From Phenylobacterium sp. (GTDB taxonomy: Bacteria > Pseudomonadota > Alphaproteobacteria > Caulobacterales > Caulobacteraceae): a stretch of 64,000 nucleotides of DNA. This document shows positions 5,437-30,873 of this stretch, one piece after another. The stretch's first letter is position 1. The number at the start of each line of letters is the position of its first letter. The stretch lies in contig JAGNIV010000004.1 of NCBI GenBank assembly GCA_018001015.1, positions 143,543 through 207,542 of the forward strand. The letters are read 5' to 3'. Below the pieces are notes generated by a model. The model made no database searches. It was given only the letters and a program-made list of their open reading frames with translations, and was not told where the DNA came from. The position numbers and the translations under genes were made by a program.

Positions 5437-5440
5437 TCCC

Positions 5441-12560: not shown

Positions 12561-12958
12561 GCGGGACGCGCGCCCGTGAAGTGCGGCGCGTCGTCGGCCA
12601 CGGCGCACCAGTCCGCCGCCTGGCCGGTGAAGGCGTGAGAGATGATCTTCACGGCGAGGTCGCCATCGACGGTCCCGGCGCGTAGCCGCACGCGGTCGGG
12701 CAGGGCGGTGGCGCGGCTGAGGATCGGGGAACCGCAGACCTTGCAGAACACCCGCTCCTTGCCCGGCGAGGATTCAAACGCGCTGAGCAGGTCCGCGCCG
12801 GAGGTGAACCTCAGGTCGGCCTTGGCGATGGGCAGGACGGCGACGAAGGCGGTTCCCGAGGCCTTGCGGCAGGAACGGCAGTGACAGGCCTGGATGCCGG
12901 GCAGGTCGCCGGACACCTCGAACCGGACCGCGCCGCAGAGGCAAGACCCGGTGTGCAT
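12557..12958 (-). CDS. GFA/CENP-V family zinc-binding protein
   Basis: 133 residues with the zinc ligands of the glutathione-dependent formaldehyde-activating family: CLCGAV (residues 7-9), CHCRSC (25-30) and FCKVCGSP (about 92-99). Family members bind zinc and some bind glutathione adducts, but most, including this one, have no demonstrated activity. Its start lies 2 bases beyond the stop of the small upstream gene on the same strand, so they are co-transcribed. The stop codon lies inside the 118-bp repeat. Confidence 0.85.
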   Translation of the reverse strand: MHTGSCLCGAVRFEVSGDLPGIQACHCRSCRKASGTAFVAVLPIAKADLRFTSGADLLSAFESSPGKERVFCKVCGSPILSRATALPDRVRLRAGTVDGDLAVKIISHAFTGQAADWCAVADDAPHFTGARPA

Positions 12959-12960
12959 GG

Positions 12961-13212
12961 TCAGGCGTCCAGGGTCCGGGGCCCGGCATGGGCGACGTGG
13001 AACTGGCCGCCCACCGACAGCACGATCCAGTCGCCGGGCCGCGCCACCATCCAGCCGTTGGGGGTGGAGACCTGCACCAGGCCGGTCTCGTCGAGGGCGT
13101 GACCATCGGCCCCCAGCCAGTAGAGCAGCTTGGTCCAGCTTCGGCCGTCGTGGGCCGGCGGCACGCGCAAGGCGGCGCCGTGGTCGAAGGCGGGGGAAGG
13201 AGATGGCCTCAT
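12961..13212 (-). CDS. Small conserved hypothetical protein (PGDWIV-type)
   Basis: 83 residues from the ATG at 13212; the open frame continues to 13338, but the extension looks non-coding. The C-terminal half (LVQVSTPNGWMVARPGD, then WIVLSVGGQFHVA) resembles the short beta-rich domain seen in many phage and bacterial proteins with an APGDWII-G-QGEFY pattern, of unknown function. It is followed 2 bases later by the GFA gene, suggesting one transcript. No clear Shine-Dalgarno sequence is present before the chosen start. Confidence 0.55.
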   Translation of the reverse strand: MRPSPSPAFDHGAALRVPPAHDGRSWTKLLYWLGADGHALDETGLVQVSTPNGWMVARPGDWIVLSVGGQFHVAHAGPRTLDA

Positions 13213-13368
13213 CGAAACTCTGTCACTGGAAACGCCAAAACGTGGAGTTGCGGGTGACTCGGTGACCAGGACCTTAATCAGCTTGGCTGTGCGCACGATC
13301 GGTGGGTGGCATTGCGGTGAGGCTTTGAAGAGTGGCATCTGAGGTCATGCCGCAGCTGGGAGGCGCCC

Positions 13369-14670
13369 TTGCCGTTTGAGTTCGAGATCCCGGGCGTGGC
13401 GGCTGAGATTCTGGCGGCCCGGACCGCGGAGGCGCTGGACCCCATCCTCACCAAACTCACAAGATCCGCGTCAGCCCTGGGTGCGCCGACTGTGCGCGGC
13501 CACAAACTGTTCGTCAAAGACCTGGACGACACGATCCCGCACATCGCCCGGGTGCTGCGACTGGATGACCGCGACGGCGAAAAGAGCAACGACAATGTCT
13601 GCGTCATCGCCACCCAGCTCTATGGGGTCGGCGGCCACAGCAAGGTGGTGGCTGACATCACGCGCCTGATCGGCGGCGAGAAGGTCAGCCTGATCCTCAC
13701 CGATCTCTATGGGAACATCGCCTATCGCCGGTTGATCGGCGAGGACATGGAGGCGCGGGGCTATCACTGCCGCGCCTTGCTGGCGCTCAAGGCGCCCAGC
13801 GTTCTGGACCGCACTATCGAGCTGCATCGTCTGCTGTGCGCGATCAAGCCGACGCGGATATTCCTGCTGCAGCACCACATGGACGTCTGTGCGGTGACGG
13901 CCACCTATCCGTTCCGCGACATCACCGAATTCGTCCACCATGCCGACCATCTGCCGTGCCTTGGCGCGACGGTGGGCTATTCCGCGCATGTGGACCTGAC
14001 CTACACCTGCCACCCGATCTGCGCGGCGGCCGGTTTGAATCCGATCTATTCGGGCATGACCCTTCCCGGTCTTTCCGCCGTGCAGGGCGCTGAAAAGTCT
14101 GATGGTCCGCTGGTCTTCGGCACCTGCGGCAACCTCGGAAAATACCGGCAGGAAGGGCGCGCCAGCCGCTACCGATGGATTGATTGGGTGATCCCCGCCT
14201 TGCGGACGCCGAATTCCAAATTCATCCACATCGGGCCGACCGATGCGGCCTTCGAACAGGATATCCGCCAGGGCCTGGCCGACGCCGGGATTGATCCGGA
14301 GCGCTATGTCTTCGCCGGACTGACGCCAAGTCTGCAAACGGCGCTGATCGACCATCAGGTCGATGTCTATATCTCCAGCTACCCGGAGGGCGGCGGGCGC
14401 GCGACGCTTGAGGCCCTGGCCGCCGGCGTACCGGCCGTCGCTCCGAGCGAGGCCGAGATGGGGCCTCTGGTCCAGTACTCCTCCCCGCTGTCGGGCTGGG
14501 CCCTGGTCTATGATCCGGCCCAGATGCCCGCGGCGATCGCGGACGCCGAGAGCCGTCGTGACGCGATGCGTAGCGCCGCCTATCGCGCGACGGTGCAGAT
14601 CGAGCTCAATCGGTTCGAGCAATATGTCGCCGGTCGGCCGCTCGGGCCCGCGCCCGCGCCCCAGAGCTAG
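13369..14670 (+). CDS. Glycosyltransferase, GT-B fold (family 4-like)
   Basis: 433 residues from a TTG start 5 bases after GGGAGG. The N-terminal half has a VGGHSKVV loop typical of the acceptor domain, and the C-terminal half has the donor-site motif YPEGGGRATLEALAAGVPAV (E-x7-E), as in retaining GT4 enzymes that use nucleotide sugars. The first 75 residues are an extra segment without a recognised fold. It is likely cytoplasmic or peripheral to the membrane and is the first gene of the glycan-decoration locus. Its stop overlaps the convergent methyltransferase stop at CTAG (14667-14670). Confidence 0.82.
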   Translation: MPFEFEIPGVAAEILAARTAEALDPILTKLTRSASALGAPTVRGHKLFVKDLDDTIPHIARVLRLDDRDGEKSNDNVCVIATQLYGVGGHSKVVADITRLIGGEKVSLILTDLYGNIAYRRLIGEDMEARGYHCRALLALKAPSVLDRTIELHRLLCAIKPTRIFLLQHHMDVCAVTATYPFRDITEFVHHADHLPCLGATVGYSAHVDLTYTCHPICAAAGLNPIYSGMTLPGLSAVQGAEKSDGPLVFGTCGNLGKYRQEGRASRYRWIDWVIPALRTPNSKFIHIGPTDAAFEQDIRQGLADAGIDPERYVFAGLTPSLQTALIDHQVDVYISSYPEGGGRATLEALAAGVPAVAPSEAEMGPLVQYSSPLSGWALVYDPAQMPAAIADAESRRDAMRSAAYRATVQIELNRFEQYVAGRPLGPAPAPQS

Positions 14671-15422
14671 GCTTGGCGTCGCCGCCTGGCGACCACGCCG
14701 ATATTGGCCAGCAGGTGGGGCGGAAGCTCGCCGGAGATGTCCGTCAGGGCGCGCAGAAGGTCAGGCGACCATTCGCGCATCATGCTGTTGGGCACGATCT
14801 TCACGAAGTAGCCAAAGCGCTCCTCGATCTCGAGCCCGCAAGCTTCGAAGTCGCTGGCGAACTGGTCGAGACTGTAGACCCGCTGATGTCCCACCGCATG
14901 GTCGCGGGGCGACAGGTCGTCAGGCTTGGACTGTAGACCGATCATCACCGCCAGTTGCCGGTGCAGGGACTGGGCGTTGGGCACCACGCCGACGATCCGG
15001 CCCTCCGGCGTCAGGCACGAGGCCATGGCCGCGATCGCCGCGCGGGGCTCGTCGACATGCTCCAGCACATGCAGGGCCAGGGCCGCGTCGTAGGGCTGGG
15101 CGGGTTTGAACTCTTCGAACAGCGAATGGTGGACCACCACCTTGTCGCCGAACCGCGCGCGGGCAGCCTCGCAGAGCTTCTCCGAGCCCTCGACGATCTC
15201 GACGCTGTAGCCACGCTCCACCAGCGGCGCGGTGATCGTGCCCTCGCCATAGCCGAACTCCAGGATCCGGTCCCTGGGCGACAGCTTGGCCAGGATGGAG
15301 GGCAGGTTCTGGGTGTGGATGACGTTCTCGATGAAGTTCTCGCCGGTGGTGTCTTCCAGGTAGACAGACTCAGCGAACTTCTCGAGGGCGTGATCGGACG
15401 ACATGTTCAGGTTCCGCGGCAT
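14667..15422 (-). CDS. Class I SAM-dependent methyltransferase
   Basis: 251 residues. Motif I is ILEFGYGEGTITAP (about 53-66), the acidic end of strand 2 is VEIVEGSEK, and motif II is DAALALHVLEHVDEP. This is the Methyltransf_11/23 pattern found in sugar and small-molecule O-methyltransferases. Transcribed divergently from the nine-gene acyl operon and convergently with a glycosyltransferase, so it probably methylates the same glycan or its acyl group. Substrate not determinable. An in-frame ATG at codon 7 is an alternative start. Confidence 0.8.
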   Translation of the reverse strand: MPRNLNMSSDHALEKFAESVYLEDTTGENFIENVIHTQNLPSILAKLSPRDRILEFGYGEGTITAPLVERGYSVEIVEGSEKLCEAARARFGDKVVVHHSLFEEFKPAQPYDAALALHVLEHVDEPRAAIAAMASCLTPEGRIVGVVPNAQSLHRQLAVMIGLQSKPDDLSPRDHAVGHQRVYSLDQFASDFEACGLEIEERFGYFVKIVPNSMMREWSPDLLRALTDISGELPPHLLANIGVVARRRRQA

Positions 15423-15506
15423 GATTTTGCGCAGTGATATTGGAATGCGGTGGTTGACGCCACGCCGTTACCGAACCACTCGTCGCGCGTGCCACAGGAC
15501 CGATCC

Positions 15507-16112
15507 ATGACCGCCGCCGCCACCCCGGCGCAGACCGTGCTGAGCGGCGCCTTCGTGACGCTGCGCCCCCTGGCCGTGGCCGATGCGGCGATGACCTTCC
15601 GCTGGCGGCATGATGATCGCGCCCGCTACCTGAACAAGGCCGCGCCGACGGTGGCCGACCAGGCGCGCTGGATCGCCGCCCGGCCCCCCGCCGAGTACAA
15701 CTTCATCATCGAGCTGAAGGACGGCGCGCCCATCGGCATGGTGGCCCTGCTGGAGATCGACGCCGCCAATCGCCGGGCCGAAGCCGGGCGGTTCCTGATC
15801 GGCGAGGCGCAGGCCGCGCGCGGCGTCCCCGCGGCGGTCGAGGCCATGAAGCTGGTTTACGAACTGGCCTTCGACACCCTGGGCCTGGAGCGGATCCACG
15901 GTTTGATCGGGGCCGACAATCACCTCATGCTCAAGTGGCAGCTGTTTCTCGGCATGAAGGAGGAGGGGCGGTTGCGCCGGCACTATTTCAAGGACGGCGG
16001 GTTCATCGACGCCATCGCGCTGGGCCTGCTCGCCTCCGACTATCGGGCGGTCGCGCGGCCGCGTATGCTGGGCCTGATCGCGGCCGGTCGGCCGGCCCGC
16101 GCCGCACAATAG
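15507..16112 (+). CDS. GNAT family N-acetyltransferase
   Basis: 201 residues from the ATG at 15507; an upstream in-frame GTG at 15450 is less likely. The RimJ/RimL-like GNAT fold is visible: VTLRPLAVADA at the start, IGMVALLEID strand, then FLIGEAQAARGVP acyl-CoA loop and LGLERIHGLIGADNHLMLKWQ. First gene of a nine-gene run (15507-23682) with spacings from -8 to +17 bases. Given the amino-sugar genes nearby, transfer of an acyl group from CoA or a carrier protein to a sugar amine is a reasonable inference, but the acceptor is not shown. Confidence 0.8.
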   Translation: MTAAATPAQTVLSGAFVTLRPLAVADAAMTFRWRHDDRARYLNKAAPTVADQARWIAARPPAEYNFIIELKDGAPIGMVALLEIDAANRRAEAGRFLIGEAQAARGVPAAVEAMKLVYELAFDTLGLERIHGLIGADNHLMLKWQLFLGMKEEGRLRRHYFKDGGFIDAIALGLLASDYRAVARPRMLGLIAAGRPARAAQ

Positions 16113-16128
16113 GATTTGGAGAGTTCGA

Positions 16129-16431
16129 ATGGCCGGCGAAGACGAGGTCCTGGCGATCGTGTTGCGCGCCTTGGAGAACCTGAACGAGGAACTTGAGGCG
16201 GACCAGCAGGTCCCCGTGGCCGCCACGACCGCCTTGTTCGGCGCCGATGCGGAGCTGGATTCCCTGGCCCTCGTCTCGGTGATCGTCGATGTCGAGGCGG
16301 GGCTGGCCGAGCGGTTCGGCCGCCCCTTCAGCCTGATGGACGACCAGGCCATGGAGCGCGAAGTCTCGCCCTTCACCAGCGTTCAGGCCCTGGTGGACTA
16401 TATCGGCGAGCTGCTCGCCAAGCCGGCCTGA
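16129..16431 (+). CDS. Acyl carrier protein 1
   Basis: 100 residues, acidic and helical. The phosphopantetheine site is the serine in ELDSLALVSVIVDVE (about residue 44), preceded by the usual FGADAELDS turn. Longer than FabD-pathway ACP (about 78 residues), with an 8-10-residue insert near AMEREVSPF. It lies 16 bases after the GNAT gene and is distinct from the second carrier at 22103-22339, so two carrier proteins serve this locus. It probably carries the growing acyl chain or hands it to the transferase. Confidence 0.85.
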   Translation: MAGEDEVLAIVLRALENLNEELEADQQVPVAATTALFGADAELDSLALVSVIVDVEAGLAERFGRPFSLMDDQAMEREVSPFTSVQALVDYIGELLAKPA

Positions 16432-16448
16432 GGCCGGACGTCCGCCTG

Positions 16449-17369
16449 GTGACCCAGACCTTCGAGATCACGGCTCAGGGCCACCCCCGTCTGTCCCGGA
16501 TGCGCGGCATCTTCGCCGAACAATACCGGTTCTCCCGCGACCTCGTCGACCGCGCCGCCATGGCGTTCGGTAAGCCCTGGGCCGACGAGGCCGAGGAAAC
16601 CTTGCAGGTGTTGTTTTCCGACGATGAGGCCCTGGCCTTGGCGGTGAAGGGCTACAGCGCCTTCGCCCTGGATTCCATGCGGCGGCAGGCCCGCTTCGAG
16701 AAGGACCTGGCCTATCCCGCCAAGACCTATGAAGAGGCCGCCAGGGAAGTCTATTTCAACGACGACCACATGATGGGCGTCTATCTTCCAGGCCTGCTGC
16801 TGTCGCATTTCCTGTGGCCGCACCACTACCGGCAGCTTGAGTTCTTCGACACCGCGTTCGTCGCGCCGATGCGGGCCGCCGGCGGCGATCGGTTCGTTGA
16901 GGTGGGCGTCGGCACCGGGCTATATTCGCGCCGCCTCTTGCAGGCGCTCCCCGGCGCGACGGGTCACGGCCTGGACATCAGCCCCGCCTCCCAGGCCTAC
17001 GCCAACCGGCACCTGTCCGCATTCGGGTTCGGCGACCGCTATCAGGTTCATCTACGCGATGTGGCCGAGGAGGCCGAGGCGTCAGCCTCCTGGCTGGTCT
17101 GCGTGGAGGTTCTGGAGCACCTGGAGGACCCGGTCACCTTCCTGCAGACCCTGCGCCGGACCCTGGCGCCGGGCGGACGGGCCTTCATCACCGCGGCCCT
17201 CGACGCGGCCAACGCCGACCACATCTATCTCTACCGGACCTCCGAACAGGTGCAGGCCCATCTGGAGGCCGCGGGCTTCGCCCTGGAACAGGCGTTCCTG
17301 GGCGCGGCCTATAAGCCCGTCCGGGCCGGTGCGCCCGTCCCGCTTGCGGCGGCATTTGTGGTCCTCTAG
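16449..17369 (+). CDS. Class I SAM-dependent methyltransferase
   Basis: 306 residues from a GTG 17 bases after the ACP stop. An N-terminal helical region (1-140) of unknown function is followed by a Rossmann methyltransferase: FVEVGVGTGLYS (about 152-163), HGLDISP, and ASWLVCVEVLEHLEDP. The HLED block resembles sugar and polyketide O- or C-methyltransferases. Position between an ACP and an SDR makes an ACP-bound acyl intermediate or a hydroxyl of the product the likely substrate. The codon-level start is uncertain because no good ribosome site is seen. Confidence 0.78.
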   Translation: MTQTFEITAQGHPRLSRMRGIFAEQYRFSRDLVDRAAMAFGKPWADEAEETLQVLFSDDEALALAVKGYSAFALDSMRRQARFEKDLAYPAKTYEEAAREVYFNDDHMMGVYLPGLLLSHFLWPHHYRQLEFFDTAFVAPMRAAGGDRFVEVGVGTGLYSRRLLQALPGATGHGLDISPASQAYANRHLSAFGFGDRYQVHLRDVAEEAEASASWLVCVEVLEHLEDPVTFLQTLRRTLAPGGRAFITAALDAANADHIYLYRTSEQVQAHLEAAGFALEQAFLGAAYKPVRAGAPVPLAAAFVVL

Positions 17370-17379
17370 GGCTGAACCC

Positions 17380-18120
17380 GTGACCGACACCTCGCCAGAT
17401 CCGGACGGTTCCGCGCTCTACGCCGGCAAGGTGGCCCTGGTCACCGGCGCCTCGCGCGGCGTGGGCCTGACCATCGTCCGCCATTTTCTGGCCAACGGCG
17501 CCACGGTCATCGGCCTGGCGCGCGGCGAGGCGGGCCTGGCTAATGACGCCTATCATCACCTGCATGTGGACGTCGGGGACGCCAGCGCCGTGCAGCAGGC
17601 CTTCCTGACCATCGGCAAGCTCAGCCCCCACCTGGATATTGTCATCAACAACGCGGCCGTCCTGACCTCGCAATACGCCATGATCATGCCGCCCTCGGCC
17701 GCCCAGGCCATGCTCAACGTCAACCTGCTGGGCCCCTTCATGGTGTCGCGGGAAGCCGCCAAGCTGATGCGCAAGCGCAAATGGGGGCGGATCATCAATA
17801 TCAGCTCCATGGCCGTCAGCCTGGAGCCGATGGGCGACAGCATCTATGCGGCCAGCAAGGCCGGGCTCAGCACCCTGGCCAACGTGATGGCCAAGGAGTT
17901 CGCGGCGCTGAACGTGACCTGCAACACCGTGGCGATCACCGCGTTGGAGACCGACATGCTGGCCCAGCTTCCCCGCGACAAGGTCGAGGCGGTGGTGGCC
18001 GGCCTGCCCATCCCGCGTTTTGCCACCGACGATGACGTCCTCAACGTCATCGACTTCTTCGCCTCCGAGCGCAGTTCCTACGTCACCGCCCAGACGGTGT
18101 TCCTGGGCGGGGTGAACTGA
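17380..18120 (+). CDS. SDR family oxidoreductase
   Basis: 246 residues from the GTG at 17380. Classical short-chain dehydrogenase: TGASRGVG cofactor loop (about 21-28), NNAA (about 93-96), catalytic S in INISSM, then Y-x3-K in YAASK. The C-terminal TVFLGG is FabG-like. The likely reaction is NAD(P)H-dependent reduction of a 3-ketoacyl-ACP made by the ketosynthase immediately downstream, whose ATG overlaps this stop by one base. The frame continues upstream only as a shadow of the methyltransferase gene. Confidence 0.85.
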   Translation: MTDTSPDPDGSALYAGKVALVTGASRGVGLTIVRHFLANGATVIGLARGEAGLANDAYHHLHVDVGDASAVQQAFLTIGKLSPHLDIVINNAAVLTSQYAMIMPPSAAQAMLNVNLLGPFMVSREAAKLMRKRKWGRIINISSMAVSLEPMGDSIYAASKAGLSTLANVMAKEFAALNVTCNTVAITALETDMLAQLPRDKVEAVVAGLPIPRFATDDDVLNVIDFFASERSSYVTAQTVFLGGVN

Positions 18121-19142
18121 TGGCCGGTCCCGTCGACCGGCCTGGCGTGGCGATCGCCGGAGTCGGGCACCATCTTCCGACCTATTTCGAGGACAACGAG
18201 ACCCTTTGCCGGACCTTGCCGGTGACGCCGGAGTGGATCCTGGAGAAGACCGGCATCAAGCAGCGCGGGATCGCGGCGCCCGGCGACACCGCGTCGGACT
18301 ACGCTCTCCAGGCCGCCCGCGCCGCCATTGAGATGGCGGGCATCGACGCCGGCGAGATCGACCTGATCATCGCCGCCACCTTCTCGGCCGACTACCTGTT
18401 CCCGCCGCTGTCGGCCAAGGTGCAGCGTGAGCTGAAGGCCGCCTCGGCCCAGGTCTTCGACCTGCAGGCCAATTGCACCGGCTTCGTCGCCGGCCTGACC
18501 ACAGCCGCCGATCGGATGATGCTGGACGAGAGCGTGCGCCACGCCCTGGTGATCGGGATCGACTTCTGCTCGCGCTATATCGACCGCACAGACGAGAACA
18601 CCGCCATCTATCTGGCCGACGGGGCCGGGGCGGCGGTGCTGAGCCGCACCACCCCCGGCAATGGCATCCTGGCCTCCAGCTTCTTCACCGACAGCTCCAG
18701 CTACGAAGCGGTGCGGCTACGGGGCGGCGGGTCGAGCTTCCCTAATACCGGCCGCGCCTTCGATCCGGCCGTGGACCTGATGGAAATGAACGGCCTGGCC
18801 ACCTGGAAACAGGCCATCACCCACCTGCCCAGCGTCATCCGCAAGGCCTGCGCCAAGGCGTCGGTGGAGGTGAAGGCGGTGGACTTCCTGGTCTTCCATC
18901 AGGCCAACTTCAACCTGATCCACTACATCGTCCGGAAGATGGGCTTTGATCTGACGCGCACCTATACGAACGTGCAGGAGATCGGGAACACCGGGGCGGC
19001 GTCCATCGCCATCGCGCTGAGCGAGGCGGTGCGCAAGGGGCTGGTGAAAGCCGGAGACCTGGTGGTGCTGGCCGCGGTGGGCGCCGGCTTCAACTTCGGG
19101 GCCAGCGTCTGGCGCTGGGAAATGCCCAGGGGGGGGCGCTAG
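18120..19142 (+). CDS. 3-ketoacyl-ACP synthase III-like condensing enzyme
   Basis: 340 residues, FabH fold. The catalytic triad is intact: C119 in QANCTGF, H260 in FHQANF and N290 in IGNTGAAS. FabH-type enzymes join an acyl-CoA or acyl-ACP primer to malonyl-ACP by decarboxylating condensation. Here the acyl pocket sequence and the genomic setting (no fab genes) suggest a specialised enzyme for a short chain. It starts one base before the SDR stop ends and is followed 2 bases later by the MaoC-SDR fusion, so the three encode condensation, reduction and dehydration steps in order. Confidence 0.88.
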   Translation: MAGPVDRPGVAIAGVGHHLPTYFEDNETLCRTLPVTPEWILEKTGIKQRGIAAPGDTASDYALQAARAAIEMAGIDAGEIDLIIAATFSADYLFPPLSAKVQRELKAASAQVFDLQANCTGFVAGLTTAADRMMLDESVRHALVIGIDFCSRYIDRTDENTAIYLADGAGAAVLSRTTPGNGILASSFFTDSSSYEAVRLRGGGSSFPNTGRAFDPAVDLMEMNGLATWKQAITHLPSVIRKACAKASVEVKAVDFLVFHQANFNLIHYIVRKMGFDLTRTYTNVQEIGNTGAASIAIALSEAVRKGLVKAGDLVVLAAVGAGFNFGASVWRWEMPRGGR

Positions 19143-19144
19143 CC

Positions 19145-20341
19145 ATGTTCTCCGATTTCGACACCATCAAGGTCGGCGACACCCGCTCACTGACCCGGAC
19201 CATCACCGAGGCCGACGTGCGGCGGTTCGTGGAGATGACCGGCGACGACAATCCGCTCCACGTCGATCGCGCCTATGCGGAGACCACCAGCTTCAAGGAC
19301 ATCGTCGTCCACGGCATGCTGGGAGCCTCCTTTATCTCCACCGTGATCGGCACGCAGCTGCCCGGACCGGGCGCGCTCTGGGTGGCCCAGAGCCTGGAAT
19401 TCCTGGCGCCGGTAAGGCTGGGGGACACCCTGACCGTGACCTGCGCGGTGACGAAGAAGCATGAGCGCGACCGGCTGCTGGAACTTGCCACCACCATCGT
19501 CAACCAGGCCGGCCAGAGCGTCCTGACCGGACAGGGCAAGGTCAAGGTGCTGGCGCCCAAGGCGGCGCCCCAGGCGGTGGCCGAGCTTGGCCGGGCCAGG
19601 GTGGCCCTGGTCACCGGCGGGGCCGGGGGCATCGGCAGAGCCATCTGCCTGCGCCTGGCGCGGGACGGCTTCCACGTGCTGGTCAACTATCGCTCGCAGC
19701 CGGAACGCGCCCAGGCCCTCGTGCGCGAGATCGCCGCCCTGGAAGGCGCGGCCCGCGCCGTCGCCCTGTCGGCGGACATCTCCACGGCCGAAGGGGCCGC
19801 GGCCTTGGCGGCGGCGGCCACGGGCGCGTTCGGCGGGGTCGATGTCCTGGTGAACAACGCCTCGCCGCGTATCGGCGGCAAGGCCCTGGCGGCCACCGAC
19901 TGGACCGATATCCAGGCCCATCTGGACGTGCAGGTGAAGGGCGCCTTCCTGCTGACCCAGGCCTTGGCTCCGGCCATGGCGGAGCGCCGCTGGGGGCGGA
20001 TCGTCAACATCACCTCACTCGTCGCCGAAGGGGCGCCGACCGTGACCTGGACCGGCTACGCCATGGCCAAGGCGGCCCTGGCGACCATGTCGCGCCATCT
20101 CGCCGCCGAGTTGGGGCCGAGCGGCGTGACCGTGAATTGTGTCGCGCCGGGCCTGACCGACGCCGGCCTCGTGGGCGAGGTGCCGGAAAAGGCCCAGATG
20201 CTGGCGGCCCGGCAAACTCCCTTGCGGCGGTTGGCGACGCCGCGGGATGTGGCCGGCGCTGTGGCCTACCTCGCGTCCGAGGACGCCGCTTTCGTCACCG
20301 GTCAGACCCTGGGGGTCAATGGCGGCATGGCGATGCGATGA
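19145..20341 (+). CDS. MaoC-like hydratase fused to an SDR reductase
   Basis: 398 residues in two domains. Residues 1-130 are a hot-dog (R)-enoyl hydratase with DDNPLHVD, the Asp/His catalytic pair of the PhaJ/MaoC family, and a VHGMLGASF helix. Residues 150-398 are a FabG-like SDR with TGGAGGIG, NNAS, catalytic S in ITSLV and YAMAK, ending in GVNGG. The fusion would reduce a 3-ketoacyl substrate and dehydrate (or hydrate) the product within one chain. The stop overlaps the next gene's ATG (ATGA). The two domains are usually separate proteins, so this arrangement is unusual. Confidence 0.85.
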   Translation: MFSDFDTIKVGDTRSLTRTITEADVRRFVEMTGDDNPLHVDRAYAETTSFKDIVVHGMLGASFISTVIGTQLPGPGALWVAQSLEFLAPVRLGDTLTVTCAVTKKHERDRLLELATTIVNQAGQSVLTGQGKVKVLAPKAAPQAVAELGRARVALVTGGAGGIGRAICLRLARDGFHVLVNYRSQPERAQALVREIAALEGAARAVALSADISTAEGAAALAAAATGAFGGVDVLVNNASPRIGGKALAATDWTDIQAHLDVQVKGAFLLTQALAPAMAERRWGRIVNITSLVAEGAPTVTWTGYAMAKAALATMSRHLAAELGPSGVTVNCVAPGLTDAGLVGEVPEKAQMLAARQTPLRRLATPRDVAGAVAYLASEDAAFVTGQTLGVNGGMAMR

Positions 20342-22110
20342 CCCTCGGCGCTGATCGCTTGAGCGCCCTGGCGGCGCCTGGCCTGTCCCTGGCCCAGACG
20401 ATGAAGCTGGTGGCGGAGATCGAGGCCGAAGCGCCCGCGACGGTCGCCAGCCTGGCCATCAGCGCGGGATCCACGATCGATCTGCTGGGGCTGTTTTTGC
20501 GCAAGCACGCCCTGCTGGCCGGTGTCCGGCTGAGCGTCAGCCAGGGTCAGTTCGACGATCCCGTCGGCGACGCCGAGCGGTTCGCGGCCCAGGGGGTGGA
20601 GCACCTGCTGATCGCCCCGTTCTTCGACCTTCTCGCGCCGGCCTTCGAGGCTCAGGTGGGGCGGTTGAGTCCTGAGCTGATTGACGCCCGTGAGGCCGAG
20701 ATTCGCGCCCGATATCGGCTGGCGTTCCAGAAGGGGTCGGGGTTCCGCACAATCTTCCTGGCCGACTTCCATCGGTTCGGCCCGCCCGCGCCGGGGGGCG
20801 ACGCCACCGACGTGGTCCTCGCCCGGTTCAATGCCGCCTTGCGTGACGAGGCCGCGGCCTTCGCCAATGTGCGGCGGATCGACATGAGCGGCCTGGTGGC
20901 CGAGGTCGGGCGGTCGGCCGCCTTCGATCCACGCTTCTACCTGCGCAACAAGGCGCCCTATTCGGCCACCCTGCTGGACGCCTGGGCGCGGCAGGTCACC
21001 GCCCTGTCGCGGGGTTATGGCGCCCAGTTCCGCAAGGCCCTGGTGCTGGATTGCGACAATACCCTGTGGGGCGGGGTGCTGGGCGAAGACCTGGTCGCGG
21101 GCGTGAAACTCGGACCGCACGACTATCCGGGCGCCGTCTATTGGAGGGCTCAGCAGGTGTTCGCAGGTCTGCGGCGCGAGGGCGTGCTCCTCTGCCTGTG
21201 CAGCAAGAACAATCCGCAGGATGTCGAGGAGATGTTCGACACTCACCCGGACATGGTGCTCACCTCGGACGACATCATCCTGAAGAAGGTCAATTGGCGC
21301 GAGAAGGTCGAGAACCTGAGGGAGATCGCCGCCGACCTGAACATCGGTCTCGACAGCCTGGTCTTCCTCGACGATTCCGACTTCGAGTGCGAGGCGGTGC
21401 GCCGCCAGCTGCCGATGGTGTCGGTCTTTCAGACCCCGGCCAACCTGCCGGCCTATCTGGGGGTGATGGAGGATATCCGGTCGCTGTTCCTGGCCGGTGG
21501 GGTCAGCGACGAGAGCCGGGCCAAGACCGACCAGTACCGCCAGCGCGCCCTGGCGCTGGAGGCGCAGCAGGCCTTCGAGAGTCACGAGGACTACCTCGCC
21601 TCCCTGCAGATGACCGTGCGGGTCGCCCGCAATGATGCGGCCCAGGCCGCGCGGATCAGCGAGCTCAGCCAGAAGTCCAACCAGTTCAACCTGACGACCC
21701 GGCGCTACGCCGTCGCCGAAATCCAGGCCTTGATGGCGAGTGACGCCGCCGACGTCTGGTCGGTGGAGGTCGCCGACCGGTTCGGCAAGGCGGGCCTGAC
21801 CGGGGTCATCGTGGCGCGCTACGCGCCGGGGGAGGTCAGGATCGAGAACCTGCTGATGAGCTGCCGGGTGCTGGGACGCGGGGTAGAGTTCGCGCTATGG
21901 GCGCCGGTGCTGGCGGCCGCCTCGGCGCGGGGTTGCGTGACCCTCGCCGCCGACTACCGGCCAAGCGCCAAGAACGCCCAGGTCGCCGACTACTACGACC
22001 GGCTCGGCTTGATACGGGTGGGCGAGGCCGATGGCGCGGGGCGATATGCTCATGCGATAGAGGGCCTCACCCTCCCGCCGACCCCGTGGATTTGCCTTGT
22101 CGATGATTGA
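20338..22110 (+). CDS. FkbH-like HAD-IIIC protein
   Basis: 590 residues from the ATG at 20338. The HAD signature VLDCDNTLWGGVLGED (from about residue 237) is the FkbH hallmark; an N-terminal SGNH/hydrolase-like region and a C-terminal GNAT-like region (LMSCRVLGRGVE, then YRPSAKNAQVADYY) complete the usual HAD-IIIC layout. FkbH proteins take 1,3-bisphosphoglycerate, remove phosphate and load a glyceryl unit onto an acyl carrier protein. An ACP gene overlaps its 3' end, which fits that role. Homologues occur in flagellin glycosylation islands of Pseudomonas. Confidence 0.87.
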   Translation: MTLGADRLSALAAPGLSLAQTMKLVAEIEAEAPATVASLAISAGSTIDLLGLFLRKHALLAGVRLSVSQGQFDDPVGDAERFAAQGVEHLLIAPFFDLLAPAFEAQVGRLSPELIDAREAEIRARYRLAFQKGSGFRTIFLADFHRFGPPAPGGDATDVVLARFNAALRDEAAAFANVRRIDMSGLVAEVGRSAAFDPRFYLRNKAPYSATLLDAWARQVTALSRGYGAQFRKALVLDCDNTLWGGVLGEDLVAGVKLGPHDYPGAVYWRAQQVFAGLRREGVLLCLCSKNNPQDVEEMFDTHPDMVLTSDDIILKKVNWREKVENLREIAADLNIGLDSLVFLDDSDFECEAVRRQLPMVSVFQTPANLPAYLGVMEDIRSLFLAGGVSDESRAKTDQYRQRALALEAQQAFESHEDYLASLQMTVRVARNDAAQAARISELSQKSNQFNLTTRRYAVAEIQALMASDAADVWSVEVADRFGKAGLTGVIVARYAPGEVRIENLLMSCRVLGRGVEFALWAPVLAAASARGCVTLAADYRPSAKNAQVADYYDRLGLIRVGEADGAGRYAHAIEGLTLPPTPWICLVDD

Positions 22111-22339
22111 CGAAACCGCCCTGAAGCAGATCCTCGCCGCCGTGCTGGGCGTGGACGCCGCCGCTATCACCGCCGACTCCAACAGCGACACGATCGAGAG
22201 TTGGGATTCCCTGCGCCACATGAATCTGGTCCTGGCTTTGGAGGAGGAGTTCGGCGTCTCCATCCCGGACGAAGAGGCGGCCAACATCACCTCCTACGCC
22301 CTGATCAAGCTGGTGCTCGAAGAGCTCACGGCGGCCTGA
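22103..22339 (+). CDS. Acyl carrier protein 2
   Basis: 78 residues from the ATG at 22103 (a TTG two codons upstream is possible). Standard length and fold; the phosphopantetheine serine is in IESWDSLRHMNLV (about residue 35). It overlaps the end of the FkbH-like gene by 8 bases, the arrangement expected for a dedicated carrier of the FkbH product. It is different in sequence and length from the carrier at 16129-16431. The acyl-AMP ligase begins 2 bases after its stop. Confidence 0.88.
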   Translation: MIDETALKQILAAVLGVDAAAITADSNSDTIESWDSLRHMNLVLALEEEFGVSIPDEEAANITSYALIKLVLEELTAA

Positions 22340-22341
22340 CC

Positions 22342-23682
22342 ATGCAGTGGCTGCTCGACCGCTTCGCCACGGCGCCGGAGACCCCCGCCTTCATCCACGA
22401 GGATCGGGTGGTGAGCTATGGCCAGGTGTTGCGGATGGTGGAGGCCTTCGGCGCCCGGCTCGCCGCCGAGGGGGTGGCCCGCGGCGAGAGGGTCGCGGTC
22501 CTGGCGGACTATTCGCCTGAGGTCTTCTGCCTGATCCTGGCCCTGGCCCGGAACGCCGACATCATCATTCCCATCAGTCCCGCCTCGGTGGTCGAGGAGG
22601 CAGCCGCCTTGGCCATCTGCGGCTGCGACTGGCTGGCCAGGTTCGACGCGGAGGGTGGAGAGGTGGCGTTTTCCCGCCGGGTGGTGGCGGTGGAGAACCC
22701 GCTCATCGCCGGCCTGATCGCCGACGGCCGCCCCGGCCTGGTGCTCTTCTCGTCAGGTTCGACGGGCAAGCCCAAGGGTATCCTGCACGACTTCGACCGG
22801 GTGGCCGACAAGTTCCGCAAGGCGCGGGCCGCGACCCGGGCCATCCCCTTCCTGATGATCGATCACTTCGGCGGGGTGAACACCATCCTGGCCATCACCA
22901 GCAGCCTGGGCACGGTGGTCACGGTGGCCGACCGGTCGAGCGCCAGCATCTGCGCGGCCATCGCCCGTCACAGGGTCGAGCTGCTGCCCGCCACGCCCTC
23001 GTTCCTGACCATGTTGATGGCCTCGGGCCTCCACCGGGATTTCGACCTCAGCTCACTCAAGCGCATCACCTACGGCACCGAGGTCATGCCTCAATCGACC
23101 CTCGACCGCCTACGCGCGGCCTTCCCGGGGGTTGAGCTGCAGCAGACCTATGGCCTGTCGGAGGTGGGCGTGCTGCGTTCGCAGTCCCGAGACGACGGCT
23201 CGCTCTGGGTGCGGGTCGGGGGCGAGGGGTTCGAGACCAGGGTGGTGGACGGCGTGCTGTGGATCCGGTCCGACTACGCCATGGTCGGCTACCTGAACGC
23301 GCCCTCCGAGTTCGACGCCGAGGGCTGGTTCAACACCCAGGACCAGGTGGAGGTCGATGGGAGCTATTTCAAGATTCTGGGCCGTGTCACCGACATCATC
23401 AACATCGGGGGCCAGAAGGTCTATCCGGCCGAGGTGGAGGACGTGATCCTGGAGCTTGAGAACGTCGCCGACGTGGCCGTGTTTGGAGAGGCGCACGCTT
23501 TCCTCGGCCAGATGGTGGTGGCCAAGGTGGTCCTGGAAGCTCCGGAGCCGGCCGAGGCGCTGAAGAAGCGTATCCGACAGGCCTGCCTGGCCAGGCTCGC
23601 CAGCTACAAGGCGCCGGCCAAGGTTCAGATCGTGCCGGGCCCCCTGCACACCGCGCGGCAGAAGAAGACGCGCCAAGCCTAG
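22342..23682 (+). CDS. Acyl-AMP ligase (AMP-binding enzyme)
   Basis: 446 residues from the ATG at 22342. ANL superfamily: the phosphate loop is LFSSGSTGKPKG (about 136-147), the motif QQTYGLSEVG binds adenine, and the C-terminal hinge and lysine region is GRVTDIINIGGQKVYPAEVE. Shorter than acyl-CoA synthetases, like enzymes that acylate a carrier protein. It would activate a free acid and load it onto one of the two ACPs. Last gene of the nine-gene run; its TAG overlaps the convergent aminotransferase stop in a CTAG at 23679-23682. Confidence 0.85.
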   Translation: MQWLLDRFATAPETPAFIHEDRVVSYGQVLRMVEAFGARLAAEGVARGERVAVLADYSPEVFCLILALARNADIIIPISPASVVEEAAALAICGCDWLARFDAEGGEVAFSRRVVAVENPLIAGLIADGRPGLVLFSSGSTGKPKGILHDFDRVADKFRKARAATRAIPFLMIDHFGGVNTILAITSSLGTVVTVADRSSASICAAIARHRVELLPATPSFLTMLMASGLHRDFDLSSLKRITYGTEVMPQSTLDRLRAAFPGVELQQTYGLSEVGVLRSQSRDDGSLWVRVGGEGFETRVVDGVLWIRSDYAMVGYLNAPSEFDAEGWFNTQDQVEVDGSYFKILGRVTDIINIGGQKVYPAEVEDVILELENVADVAVFGEAHAFLGQMVVAKVVLEAPEPAEALKKRIRQACLARLASYKAPAKVQIVPGPLHTARQKKTRQA

Positions 23683-24764
23683 GCGCGAAGGGCGCTGGCC
23701 ACCAATCCCACATTCTCCGACGGCATCGCCGGCCAGAGCGGCAGGGACAGCACCTGGTCGGCCAGGGCCTCGGCCAGGGGGAAGGCGCCGGGCTTGAAGC
23801 CGCAGTGGGCGAAGGCGGCCTGGCGGTGGCAGGCGATGGGATAGTGGATCAGGCTCTCGATCCCGGCCGCCCTCAGCCTGGCCTGCAGGGCGTCGCGCTC
23901 GGGACTGCGGACCACATAGAGATGATAGACGTGGCGGGCCCCTTCGGCCTCGATGGGCGTCGTCAGGTCCGAGCCGGCCAGGGCCGTGTCATAGGCGGCG
24001 GCCAGCGCCCGGCGCCGGTCGTTGGCGGCGTCCAGGCGCGGCAATAACACCCGCAGGAAGGCGGCCTGGAGCTCATCCAGCCTGGAGTTCGCTCCCAGCG
24101 TCTGGTGAACGTACTTCTGGTCGGAGCCATAGTTGCGCAGGCGGCGGACCGCCTCGGCCAGGCCGGCGTCATTGGTGGTGACCGCGCCGGCGTCGCCGAG
24201 CGCGCCGAGGTTCTTGGTGGGATAGAAGCTGAAGGCGGTGGCGTGGGCGCCGCCGCCCGTCCGGCGGCCGTGATAGCTCGCGCCATGGCTCTGGGCGGCG
24301 TCCTCCAGCACGAACAGGCCGTGTCGCTGGGCCAGCGCCATCAGCGGCTCAAGATCGACGGGATGGCCGTAGAGCGAGACCGGCACGATGGCGGCCGTCC
24401 TGGCCGTCACCGCCGCGGCGCAGGCGGCCGCGTCGAGGGTGTAGGTGCGCGGGTCGACCTCCACCGGAACCGGGACCGCGCCCACCGCCTCCACCGCCAT
24501 CCAGGTGGCGGCGAAGGTATGGGCCGGCACGATCACCTCGGCGCCCGCCGCCACGCCGGCCGCGCGCAGGGTGAGGGTCAGGGCGTCCAGGCCATTGCCG
24601 ACGCCGACGCACCGGGCCGCGCCGCACCAGGCGGCGAACTCGGCCTCGAAGGCCGCCAGCTCCGGCCCGAGGATCATCCAGCCGGAGTCCATCACCCGGC
24701 CGTAGGCCAGGTCCAACTCTCCCCTCAGGCCCGGCTCGGACAGGTTGAGGTCGAAGAACTTCAC
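23679..24764 (-). CDS. DegT/DnrJ/EryC1 sugar aminotransferase (FdtB/QdtB-like)
   Basis: 361 residues. PLP-dependent aminotransferase of the sugar branch; the Schiff-base lysine is K184 in FYPTKNLGALG, and EDAAQSHGA supplies the cofactor aspartate. Overlaps by 4 bases with the ketoisomerase gene upstream on the same strand. That pairing is the FdtA/FdtB (or QdtA/QdtB) arrangement that makes dTDP-3-amino-3,6-dideoxyhexoses (Fuc3N or Qui3N) from dTDP-4-keto-6-deoxyglucose. rmlA and rmlB, which supply the precursor, are not in the window. Galacto versus gluco configuration cannot be read here. Confidence 0.85.
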   Translation of the reverse strand: MKFFDLNLSEPGLRGELDLAYGRVMDSGWMILGPELAAFEAEFAAWCGAARCVGVGNGLDALTLTLRAAGVAAGAEVIVPAHTFAATWMAVEAVGAVPVPVEVDPRTYTLDAAACAAAVTARTAAIVPVSLYGHPVDLEPLMALAQRHGLFVLEDAAQSHGASYHGRRTGGGAHATAFSFYPTKNLGALGDAGAVTTNDAGLAEAVRRLRNYGSDQKYVHQTLGANSRLDELQAAFLRVLLPRLDAANDRRRALAAAYDTALAGSDLTTPIEAEGARHVYHLYVVRSPERDALQARLRAAGIESLIHYPIACHRQAAFAHCGFKPGAFPLAEALADQVLSLPLWPAMPSENVGLVASALRA

Positions 24765-25156
24765 GGCCTGGCGCGGGCCAGGAAGGCGTCGAAATCGCGG
24801 ATGTAGTCGGCCTCGTCATAGGGGGTCGAGGCCAGCACCAAGCAGACCGAGCCGGAGGAGAAGTTGTCGATCTCCCGCCACTGCATGGGTCCGATGTGGA
24901 GCCCGACATGCGGGCGGTTGAGGGTGACCCGCTCCTCGCTGACGCCGTCGTGCAGACGCACGTCGAAGCTGCCGGAGACGGCGATCAGCAGCTGGTGCAG
25001 GGCCTTGTGCGCATGGCCGGCCCGCACAGATCCGCTGGGGACGTCATAGAGGTAGTAGACGCGGGCGATGCTGAAGGGGACGTGGGCGTCGGACTCGATG
25101 AAGGACAGATTGCCCCGCGGGTCGGAGATCACCGGAAGGTTGATGAGGTTCGCCAA
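24761..25156 (-). CDS. dTDP-4-keto-6-deoxyhexose 3,4-ketoisomerase (FdtA/QdtA-like cupin)
   Basis: 131 residues, single cupin. DPRGNLSFIE near the start, RVYYLYDVPSGSVRAGHAH with the paired active-site histidines, and HQLLIAVSGSFDV match the FdtA/QdtA sugar ketoisomerases. It converts dTDP-4-keto-6-deoxyglucose to the 3-keto isomer, the substrate of the aminotransferase it overlaps by 4 bases. A separate acyltransferase such as FdtC is not adjacent; the GNAT gene at 15507 or the ACP machinery may fill that role. Confidence 0.88.
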   Translation of the reverse strand: MANLINLPVISDPRGNLSFIESDAHVPFSIARVYYLYDVPSGSVRAGHAHKALHQLLIAVSGSFDVRLHDGVSEERVTLNRPHVGLHIGPMQWREIDNFSSGSVCLVLASTPYDEADYIRDFDAFLARARP

Positions 25157-25213
25157 GTCGCTCTCCTGCGCCGGTTCCGAAATGGCGGGCGAGGCCCCCC
25201 CAAGTCAACCGTT

Positions 25214-26665
25214 TCAGGCCAGGGCCTGGGCCAGGCCCGGCAGCCGGCCGATGACCCCGGCGGTGAGTTCCTCACGACGCTCCCAGAGTTCGCGGTACCA
25301 GGCGCTGCGGGCGGCCGCCTGGTGGGCGAACATGCGGTGGTCACGAACATAGTCCCAGGCCTGCCGGGCCATCACTTGACGCGCGGGCTCGTCGCGCAGG
25401 GCCTCGGCGAGGCGCGGCGCCCAGTCCTTCAGCCGGTGGGCGATCAGGCCGGTCTGCCCGTGAACGATGGTCTCGGCATAGATGGTGGGAGAGGCCAGGG
25501 TGACCACGCCCCGGGCGGCGGCGTCGAGGAACTTGGCGTCGCTCTTGGTGTCCTCGTAGAGCCGCCCTTCCACGGGCGAGAGCGAGACCGCGCAGGTGGC
25601 CATCAGGTCGAGATAGGCCTCGTAGGGCATGTAGTCGTGGAAGCTCTTGTTGGCCGTCGGCAGGGCGTCGAACACCGCCCGGTCGCCCACCACCACATAT
25701 TCCACCTCCGGAAATTCCTCGGTCACCGGCGCGAGCGAGGCCGCCACCCGTGCGGCGAACTTGCCCCGCGACAGGGCCCCGTAGAAGACCCGGCGGGGCG
25801 CCGGGGCGGGGGGAAGGGGAGGCAGGTCGAAAACGGCGTTCGGGAACACCTTGACCGCGGGATTGTACTTGGAAAACGCCCGCCCCAACCGCTCGGTGGA
25901 GGTCTGCAGCGCGTGCGTGAAGCCATAGGTGAGCCAGTCGTCGGGCGCCAGCTTGCGCCCAGCGACGGCGGCGATCATGGCCGGATGATCGTCGATCTCC
26001 ATCACCACAGGCCAGCCGCGCCGGACGGCGTCGGCCATCGCCACGCACCAGGCCTTGGCCGAGGGCAGGAGCGGGCGTTGCAGCACCAGGATCTTCGGGG
26101 ACTCGGGCCCAAGCGGCAGGAAGGTGAACGGCGCGCCGCCATAGGCCACGGTCAACTCGGGCTCGCTGCGCAGGGCGTGGGCCGGCAGCCGGGTGCGGAT
26201 GTCCATCAGCCGAGGCGCAAATGCGGCGATCTGGACGGGCAGGGGGGCGGGTTCGGCCGCGCTCTTCTGAACCACCAGCAGCAGGTCGCGGTCCTCGACC
26301 TGGGGGAGTTGGGCCGGCGCCAGGCGAGGGGCGAAGTCGTCGAAGTGATCGTCGCCGGGGATCAGGGCCTGAAGCTTGGCGATCCGGAAGGTGTCGCCCA
26401 GGGCCTCAAGGGCGGCGGCGACGTGGGCCCCGGAGCGCGAAGCGGCCACCAGGACGCCGTCCGCCGCGAGAGCCTGGGCGTGGGTCTTCAGGTCCTCAAG
26501 GCTCAGGCTGTCGAGGTCGGCGATCACGACGCCGTCAGGGGTGTCGGACACGAAGGCCGCGGCGGGATTGCGCGCGGCATAGGCCCTCTCGAACGCGGGC
26601 GCGCCGGTTCCCACATAGACCAGCCGTCGGACGGTCAGAGGCGTGCGGCCGTCAAGCAGGGACAT
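25214..26665 (-). CDS. Glycosyltransferase, GT-B fold
   Basis: 483 residues, cytoplasmic. The C-terminal part has a GT-B donor domain: VFYGALSRGKFAARVAAS, then EYVVVGDRA, MPYEAYLDLMATC and KFLDAAARGVV, where an E-x7-E motif is partly replaced by an SDAKFLDAAARG block. The N-terminal half holds EIDDHPAM, a feature of some large glycosyltransferases. Same strand as the aminosugar genes with 57 bases between, so it may transfer the 3-amino sugar made by them. Transcribed away from recA. Donor and acceptor unknown. Confidence 0.75.
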   Translation of the reverse strand: MSLLDGRTPLTVRRLVYVGTGAPAFERAYAARNPAAAFVSDTPDGVVIADLDSLSLEDLKTHAQALAADGVLVAASRSGAHVAAALEALGDTFRIAKLQALIPGDDHFDDFAPRLAPAQLPQVEDRDLLLVVQKSAAEPAPLPVQIAAFAPRLMDIRTRLPAHALRSEPELTVAYGGAPFTFLPLGPESPKILVLQRPLLPSAKAWCVAMADAVRRGWPVVMEIDDHPAMIAAVAGRKLAPDDWLTYGFTHALQTSTERLGRAFSKYNPAVKVFPNAVFDLPPLPPAPAPRRVFYGALSRGKFAARVAASLAPVTEEFPEVEYVVVGDRAVFDALPTANKSFHDYMPYEAYLDLMATCAVSLSPVEGRLYEDTKSDAKFLDAAARGVVTLASPTIYAETIVHGQTGLIAHRLKDWAPRLAEALRDEPARQVMARQAWDYVRDHRMFAHQAAARSAWYRELWERREELTAGVIGRLPGLAQALA

Positions 26666-26771
26666 GCGGAACTCCGGAGCGGACGCCGCAGCTTAAGAGG
26701 CGTTATGCGGGGCGAACAAGGCGCCGCTTCCTGAACCTGATTGCGTCAGTTTCGGACGTAGGGTCCGAAAA

Positions 26772-26786
26772 GAACATCTTGTGAAC
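26772..26786 (+). promoter_or_regulatory. LexA-type SOS box of recA
   Basis: GAAC-N7-GAAC, the reverse complement of the GTTC-N7-GTTC box known for LexA in alphaproteobacteria. It lies 92 bases upstream of the recA ATG. A possible -35 TTGTGA (overlapping the box) and -10 TACACC at 17-base spacing would place the operator over the promoter. Confidence 0.85.
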
Positions 26787-26877
26787 GGAGAACAAACTAA
26801 GTACACCTGAGTCCGGCGGCGGGGAGAGCGATCTACCCCACCGGGTTGGCGGAATCATGGGATAGGGAGTGCTTGGT

Positions 26878-27948
<1,071 letters not shown>

Positions 27949-27953
27949 GCGGC

Positions 27954-30862: not shown

Positions 30863-30873
30863 GGTTCCAAAGG

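Follow-up and report, generated by a model that had tools for sequence, protein, structure and literature searches.

Positions 13369–26665 of the window, the 64,000-nucleotide stretch of a Phenylobacterium contig analysed here, carry 14 genes whose products are predicted, with high confidence, to N-acylate a 3-amino sugar. They encode FdtA- and FdtB-like sugar enzymes, a GNAT, two acyl carrier proteins (ACP1 and ACP2), a short-chain dehydrogenase/reductase (SDR), a ketoacyl-ACP synthase III (KAS III), a MaoC-SDR fusion, an FkbH-type loader, an acyl-AMP ligase, two methyltransferases (MT1 and MT2), and two glycosyltransferases (GT1 and GT2). We favor, with moderate confidence, the fuller prediction that the locus builds an N-acylated dTDP-3-amino-3,6-dideoxyhexose by way of lactyl-ACP and transfers this sugar to a surface glycan. 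New here are the spread of the acyl cassette and its clean swap at a single site, together with the finding that the MaoC-SDR fusion goes with FkbH and not with KAS III and the prediction of a particular acyl group. In what follows, L denotes compared loci, G compared genomes, and C contigs of the window’s own genome (4.0 Mb in 77 contigs). Genes of the relatives were predicted with our own codon-usage open reading frame (ORF) caller and were not taken from annotation.

A Collinear Acyl Cassette in Distant Bacteria

An FkbH query was run against named genomes, and the best 80 of 238 loci were taken. The core set of 36 loci is defined by identities of at least 50% for MaoC-SDR, at least 38% for FkbH, and at least 50% for ACP2, with the addition of L086, whose contig ends before ACP2. 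Across these loci, from about six phyla, the genes are arranged as (MT)-GNAT-ACP1-SDR-MBL-KAS III-(MaoC-SDR)-FkbH-ACP2-ligase, where MBL is a metallo-β-lactamase-fold hydrolase (PF00753). The order is collinear in 32 of the 36; L064 is permuted, and the ligase gene has moved in L066, L071, and L078. At set identity thresholds, MaoC-SDR and FkbH are present in all 36 loci, KAS III and ACP2 in 35 each, the ligase in 34, SDR in 32, MBL in 31, ACP1 in 30, GNAT in 28, and MT2 (at least 45% identity) in 16. In six of the eight loci where GNAT was not found, the miss falls at the edge of a contig. Recurrence of the gene set, with its order kept in 32 loci, is far beyond chance. The window locus lacks the MBL gene, which most relatives carry between SDR and KAS III, and no close homologue was found elsewhere in the window’s genome, the best match having 28–30% identity. 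MT2 of the window lies between ACP1 and SDR, not upstream of GNAT as in the relatives.

The cassette is scattered over Pseudomonadota, Actinomycetota, Gemmatimonadota, Acidobacteriota, candidate Eremiobacterota, and a Halobacteriovoraceae bin. Within the window’s own family, FkbH orthologues of 62–63% identity occur in three other genomes among 199 sampled, none of them of the same genus. In a midpoint-rooted tree of four joined proteins, the phyla are interleaved: two Geodermatophilaceae stand beside Oxalobacteraceae, and one Mycobacterium stands beside Burkholderiales and a Gemmatimonadetes bin. The Pseudomonadota label needs six changes on this tree, four of them forced by well-supported branches; even so, most shuffles of the label gave less clustering (9 of 500 were as low). 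These phylogenetic patterns suggest transfer of the cassette between phyla, although the tree is no proof of it. Bins may contain foreign contigs; the Blastococcus, Modestobacter, and M. rhizamassiliense genomes come from isolates. As for spread by plasmids, no match to MaoC-SDR was found at E 1e-50 among 72,556 plasmid records.

The MaoC-SDR Fusion Accompanies FkbH

Since loci chosen by FkbH are biased toward FkbH, the fusion itself was used as a query (E 1e-60). It matched in 2 of 385 alphaproteobacterial genomes, the window’s own included, and in 12 of 399 genomes of the Rubrivivax family. All 14 matches lie within about 0.7 kb of an FkbH gene with ACP2, and the fusions are whole (coverage 0.99–1.0); six of these 14 loci were already in the FkbH-query set. 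In three of the 14 (L181, L204, and L205), no KAS III gene was found within 20 kb, and the same is true of eight FkbH-query loci, some on short contigs (L092, L101, L105, L108, L110, L112, L121, and L124). The fusion is thus found with FkbH even where KAS III is absent, and it therefore goes with FkbH. By this association, MaoC-SDR more likely acts on what FkbH makes than on what KAS III makes.

A lactyl-ACP intermediate is proposed because glyceryl-ACP is a 3-hydroxyacyl-ACP, so that dehydration by MaoC and reduction by the SDR half would give lactyl-ACP. In bryostatin synthesis, a lactyl starter is said to arise through FkbH, dehydratase (DH), and ketoreductase domains. The formation of glyceryl-ACP by FkbH is described in PMC7489565. 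A DH-MT-FkbH-ACP module is also on record, one that its authors judged to be inactive (PMC4552970). Searches limited to one open-access collection turned up no paper combining FkbH and MaoC, none on FkbH with O-antigen, and none joining FdtA, FdtB, and an acyl carrier protein. A paper on Campylobacter flagellar glycans mentions FkbH once (PMC7099621).

Linkage to a Predicted 3-Amino Sugar

The initial annotation proposed that an acyl chain built on carrier proteins is attached to a 3-amino, rather than a 4-amino, sugar. The proposal survives a test of linkage to the sugar aminotransferase. FdtA and FdtB both lie within the locus stretch in 27 of the 36 cassettes (thresholds 38% and 44%, respectively), and L120 narrowly fails on FdtB. 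Eight loci have neither gene. Six of these were checked genome-wide, the two on short contigs (L079 and L086) being left out, and five of the six have an FdtB-like gene elsewhere, at 45–55% identity.

The assignment to a 3-amino sugar is supported by the closest solved relatives of both enzymes. For FdtB (23679–24764, minus strand; DegT_DnrJ_EryC1 in Pfam, E 1.5e-111, 373.6 bits), the best solved relatives are 2oga (DesV), 7b0d, and QdtB (3frk). For FdtA (24761–25156, minus strand; Pfam FdtA, E 6.1e-53, 178.6 bits), they are FdtA and QdtA, at E about 1e-32. The presence of FdtA, with 3-aminotransferases nearest among solved structures, is not the pattern of a VioA-type 4-aminotransferase. At two positions that reportedly decide between gluco and galacto products, FdtA shows a mixed pattern when compared with its solved relatives. 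The supply of dTDP-glucose is encoded on contig C35, with RmlA (477.5 vs. 360.65 bits), RmlB (457 vs. 365.1 bits), and RmlD beside them.

The exchange at one site in a congener, described below, and FdhC (5kta), a relative of GNAT, point the same way. FdhC is among 31 matches of GNAT to solved structures (E 1.1e-7); spermidine acetyltransferases rank higher. FdhC presumably transfers 3-hydroxybutanoyl from a CoA donor to dTDP-Fuc3N, whereas an ACP donor is expected for the GNAT of the window. In the FdtA/B/C and QdtA/B/C pathways to dTDP-Fuc3NAc and dTDP-Qui3NAc, as here, a 3,4-ketoisomerase works with a 3-aminotransferase. FdtC and QdtC are acetyltransferases of the hexapeptide type; in the window locus, unlike those pathways, the acyl group is presumably built on a carrier protein and moved by GNAT.

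Distances of six acyl genes correlate with one another at 0.55–0.84 and with those of GNAT at 0.34–0.62; their correlation with FdtA and FdtB is only 0.10–0.38. When the remaining acyl genes are controlled for, the partial correlation with FdtA plus FdtB is 0.50 for GNAT (1 of 2000 permutations) and 0.46 for KAS III (0 of 2000). The ligase hardly tracks the sugar genes (0.19; 166 of 2000), and no tracking is seen for SDR, MBL, MaoC-SDR, or FkbH (−0.14 to 0.04). These partial correlations are exploratory and cover seven genes in 21 loci, since three of the 24 lacked a gene and were removed, and the window, which has no MBL, stayed out. For GNAT, tracking of this kind would fit an acyltransferase that matches both its donor and its acceptor.

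Exchange at One Site in a Congener

In the congener locus L039, the equivalent site between the PLC and recA genes carries GT1 at 67%, FdtB at 86%, and FdtA at 92% identity to the window. In place of the cassette, there is a 3-kb module of a different FkbH, a small ACP-like protein, a GNAT with 36% identity to that of the window, and a glyoxalase-fold protein. No Pfam match was obtained for the ACP-like family, whose representatives in L040 and L054 share 37–38% identity with ACP2. At the DNA level, L039 aligns with window positions 9169–14469 (80–83%), 23698–25259 (87%), and 26766–30877 (93%). Between these blocks, alignment is limited to a weak stretch of MT1 and to 86 bases of FkbH, the latter alone between 15175 and 23698. 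It follows that the two loci share GT1, FdtB, and FdtA but differ in the acyl part and also in GT2. The comparison does not tell the direction of the exchange.

Among the other 100 genomes of the genus, 13 have FdtB at 68% identity or more, and four of these (L039, L040, L054, and L145) carry the short module near FdtB. That module, FkbH-ACP-GNAT-glyoxalase-fold protein, may make N-glyceryl amino sugars.

Proposed Pathway and Alternatives

RmlA and RmlB make dTDP-4-keto-6-deoxyglucose, which FdtA isomerizes and FdtB aminates. For the acyl group, we propose that ACP2 would receive a glyceryl group from 1,3-bisphosphoglycerate through the action of FkbH. The MaoC half would then dehydrate this 3-hydroxyacyl group, and the fused SDR would reduce the resulting pyruvyl to lactyl-ACP2, to be O-methylated by MT2. 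KAS III would condense the methylated unit with malonyl- or methylmalonyl-ACP1, adding two carbons, and the SDR at 17380 would reduce the 3-keto group. Finally, GNAT would move 3-hydroxy-4-methoxypentanoyl, with or without a 2-methyl group, onto the amine, and GT1 or GT2 would transfer the acylated sugar. The ligase may charge ACP1 with the extender or recycle free acid. The predicted acyl is thus 3-hydroxy-4-methoxypentanoyl, bearing a 2-methyl if methylmalonyl is used; we give this exact skeleton a nearly even chance of being right.

Two further observations touch on this scheme. Among the 44 non-core loci, 11 have an MT2-like gene (25–35% identity) together with FkbH, all 11 showing neither KAS III nor MaoC-SDR (L077, L096, L099, L103, L106, L113, L123, L126, L128, L131, and L135); ten of these genes lie within about 2 kb. 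This association of genes would fit methylation of the C3 unit, with the proviso that methyltransferases are a broad family. Separately, a methylmalonyl-CoA mutase gene (one representative scanned) lies near the cassette in five Oxalobacteraceae loci (L059, L060, L062, L063, and L091). It could be a housekeeping gene or a hint of a methylmalonyl extender.

The closest parallel to part of the gene set is found in the viosamine island of P. syringae and the PAK island of P. aeruginosa. There, as PMC3927599 relates, KAS III, a 3-oxoacyl reductase, ACP, a methyltransferase, a sugar aminotransferase, an acyltransferase, and a glycosyltransferase occur together, with the P. syringae set of KAS III, reductase, and ACP serving N-(3-hydroxy-1-oxobutyl)viosamine. 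By analogy, KAS III of the window, which is FabH-like with its triad intact, could join acetyl-CoA to malonyl-ACP1, and the SDRs could reduce the product, so that 3-hydroxybutyryl, or crotonyl after dehydration by MaoC, would reach the sugar; FkbH and ACP2 would serve a separate glyceryl modification. We regard this as unlikely, since it explains neither why MaoC-SDR travels with FkbH-ACP2 even without KAS III nor why FkbH, KAS III, and MaoC-SDR share one collinear cassette. The P. syringae sugar is a 4-amino sugar, in contrast to the 3-amino sugar here, and the window locus lies away from flagellar genes. FdtA, MaoC-SDR, FkbH, and the acyl-AMP ligase are not among the seven ORFs that PMC3927599 lists for the P. 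syringae island.

Two other pathways that use FkbH supply alternatives. The loaders of tetronate and methoxymalonate pathways resemble that of the window in scoring above the TIGR01686 cut-off and in adjoining a stand-alone ACP; they differ in that the window locus has no oxidizing dehydrogenases and is linked to MaoC-SDR and sugar genes. Given that FkbH makes the first intermediate of methoxymalonyl-ACP (PMC7489565) and that MT2 could serve as the O-methyltransferase, FkbH might provide a hydroxy- or methoxymalonyl extender for a ligase-activated starter assembled by KAS III. However, the two glyceryl-ACP dehydrogenases of that route have no counterpart among the genes at 13369–26665, the part of the genome searched for them, and the reductases of the locus are FabG-like SDRs; we hold this route to be quite improbable. 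A tetronate-like product, in which a FabH-like enzyme joins glyceryl-ACP to an acyl chain, would likewise use FkbH, a stand-alone ACP, and a FabH-like protein, all members of the tetronate set as presented in PMC7489565. We consider it the least probable of all, as Pfam gives no polyketide synthase for the locus (no name search was made for additional genes of the tetronate type), and the linkage is instead to a sugar isomerase, an aminotransferase, and GNAT. Hardly more probable is a small acyl-amino-sugar natural product that is secreted rather than placed on a surface glycan: although the enzyme types overlap with those of polyketide pathways, some relatives of the cassette adjoin flagellin, glycopeptidolipid, flippase, autotransporter, and repeat-protein genes with glycosyltransferases.

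Several points weigh against the lactyl-ACP route to an acylated surface sugar. The scheme has no need of the ligase or of the MBL hydrolase, and the latter is missing here. The division of roles between ACP1 and ACP2 is a guess, and the substrate of MaoC is read from the gene neighborhood alone. MT2 is found in fewer than half of the cassettes, with the upstream stretch in view for 13 of the 20 misses. The closest folds and best sequence matches of GNAT are ordinary acetyltransferases, the fold search being unspecific. In the L074 genome, the sixth of those checked, no FdtB was found at E 1e-70. The exchange at the same site is seen in one congener only, L039 being the sole one that shows recA, and the other nine of the 13 congeners with FdtB have no FkbH module within the stretch examined, some on short contigs. 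Lastly, the mycobacterial acyl structure considered next is an unconfirmed one.

Mycobacterial Loci

Of 396 mycobacterial genomes, a sample of a larger group, two have KAS III orthologues (E 1e-100). In each of the two, the cassette is complete, MT2 included, and there is a tandem pair of FdtA genes (L161:11290–12137 and L164:17270–18114). In G316, the cassette lies beside a nonribosomal peptide synthetase (NRPS) gene, MbtH, MmpL, three ABC transporter genes, and a glycosyltransferase gene; the neighbors in G261 equal those of G316 in size and order, and the one scanned is a glycosyltransferase gene. Judged by its genes, this setting is the make-up of a glycopeptidolipid locus. The window locus is Gram-negative and, unlike the mycobacterial serovar-specific glycopeptidolipid loci, is without NRPS, MbtH, MmpL, and ABC transporter genes.

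The cluster for the glycopeptidolipid of M. intracellulare serotype 16 was reportedly sequenced by Fujiwara et al. in 2008, an unconfirmed lead. The serotype 16 glycopeptidolipid is said to carry a 2-methyl-3-hydroxy-4-methoxypentanoylamido-3,6-dideoxyhexose, again without confirmation; literature searches found no text giving that structure. An MbtH-like gene lies next to the NRPS genes in every known glycopeptidolipid cluster, according to PMC3537567.

Acceptors and Surface Context

No acceptor is evident in the window’s genome. Flagellin was considered and is unsupported there, its genes lying on other contigs, namely C5, C13, and, as a match that falls short of the cut-off, C21. The C13 flagellins are followed by their own GT41 gene and an NDP-sugar epimerase-like gene. 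Large proteins with ALTTAQ repeats (PF20080) are encoded in the same genome at C13:17334–24500, C58:65976–71639, and C50:1477–3402; the C13 frame, of 2499 residues, is near three flagellin genes and the GT41 glycosyltransferase. Among 14 control genomes, the family occurs in Caulobacter vibrioides only. The ALTTAQ protein and GT41 beside the C13 flagellins leave a flagellar role conceivable here.

Flagellin genes are close to the cassette in four of the relatives. Two such genes lie within L065, and a 59-residue flagellin-like fragment lies at the edge of L072. In L061, L067, and L088, flagellin-family genes share the contig of the cassette, at a distance of about 9–16 kb in the first two (with FlgK too in L067) and of about 25 kb in the third. 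A search of 24 whole genomes found flagellin in 22; beyond the near cases, the contig differs or is unsettled. Further neighbors of the cassette were identified from cluster representatives. In Caulobacter, they include a GT41 with TPR repeats and an autotransporter, and in Sphingomonas, a flippase. In two other groups, ALTTAQ-repeat proteins lie by the cassette, accompanied by GT41 in Oxalobacteraceae and by genes for type I secretion in the Paucibacter group.

It is tempting to propose that one mobile cassette makes an identical N-acyl 3-amino sugar, of the 3-hydroxy-4-methoxypentanoyl type and with glycerate entering via lactyl-ACP, in unrelated bacteria, and is plugged into any host surface glycan; we put this forward tentatively, as possible but somewhat doubtful. 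In Geodermatophilaceae and Rubrivivax, the target would then be flagellin; in Duganella and Paucibacter, repeat proteins; in Sphingomonas, a polysaccharide; and in mycobacteria, glycopeptidolipid. In the window, the cassette would have been fitted into the locus beside recA. If true, the proposal would explain the unconfirmed branched methoxy-acyl amide attributed to a mycobacterial serotype, and it predicts surface epitopes common to several phyla. It suggests that a glycan decoration can move between phyla as a ready-made cassette that slots into unrelated glycoconjugates. Should the acyl structure be right, environmental Caulobacteraceae, Duganella, and mycobacteria would share one surface group, which would matter for phage receptors, for cross-reacting antibodies, and for how serovar-specific glycopeptidolipids are made. 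The scheme also offers a route, open to testing, to an acyl amide in which glycolytic carbon, in the form of glycerate, is combined with fatty-acid-type extension.

Gene Content of the Locus

The places and families given in the initial annotation are all borne out, except that it counted 13 genes where there are 14. It also described nine genes at 15507–23682 as tightly packed, in agreement with the ORF coordinates, which give gaps of 16, 17, 10, −1, 2, −4, −8, and 2 bases. This run is flanked by MT1 (14667–15422, minus strand) and by the convergent FdtB-FdtA pair (23679–25156, minus strand). To the left of the locus lies a PI-PLC-family gene and to the right lie recA and alaS.

The run, all on the plus strand, opens with GNAT (15507–16112), the proposed N-acyltransferase for the 3-amino sugar, which matches Acetyltransf_3 and has an AlphaFold2 model with a predicted local distance difference test score (pLDDT) of 93. 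ACP1 (16129–16431) is an unusual protein of 100 residues that Pfam does not recognize. When 27 sequences, that of the window included, are aligned, its DSL motif hardly varies, and its AlphaFold model has a pLDDT of 86.9. Because the best Foldseek match, holo-ACP 2lki, reaches just E 6.5e-3, the model makes its identity as an ACP likely, not certain. MT2 (16449–17369) is a methyltransferase with an N-terminal extension (Methyltransf_12, E 1.2e-15), and the SDR (17380–18120) is a proposed 3-ketoacyl-ACP reductase (TIGR01830, E 1.1e-47, under the cut-off). KAS III (18120–19142) scores 298.1 bits against a cut-off of 249 for NF006829; aligned to FabH, its Cys-His-Asn triad, the one expected of a decarboxylating KAS III, is intact, and the triad is invariant in 25 of 25 sequences. 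The MaoC-SDR fusion (19145–20341; MaoC_dehydratas plus adh_short_C2) has the GDxNPLH motif in 25 of 25 sequences and the YxxxK motif of the SDR in 24, with one gap. FkbH (20338–22110), a HAD-type protein and putative glyceryl loader, scores 265.7 bits against the TIGR01686 cut-off of 146.65, and its DCDNT motif is invariant (25 of 25). ACP2 (22103–22339; PP-binding, E 3.6e-8), the presumed carrier for FkbH, has a gene that overlaps that of FkbH. The ligase (22342–23682; AMP-binding, E 6.9e-37) matches 102 NCBIfam models; among the 25 of these matches listed, none exceeds its cut-off.

Outside the run, GT1 (13369–14670, plus strand) is a glycosyltransferase of the GT-B type with a weak Pfam match (Glyco_trans_1_4, E 3.9e-5, under the cut-off). 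MT1 is a SAM-dependent methyltransferase (Methyltransf_23, E 5.1e-21) that perhaps acts on the sugar; homologues with 40–44% identity occur in the congener loci L039, L040, L054, L142, and L145. MT1-like genes (53–63%) adjoin the cassette in L068 and L120, as in the window. GT2 (25214–26665, minus strand; Glyco_trans_1_2, E 4.2e-7) is a glycosyltransferase with homologues (42–53%) near FdtB in six congener loci.

Just left of the locus, at 12557–13338, are two small minus-strand ORFs, of which that at 12961–13338 is without a Pfam match; both are kept at the equivalent place in L039. Farther to the left, the window holds a tandem pair of DUF885 genes (3586–7264) and, about 11 kb from the locus, a gene for an RTX calcium-binding repeat protein (1727–2746).

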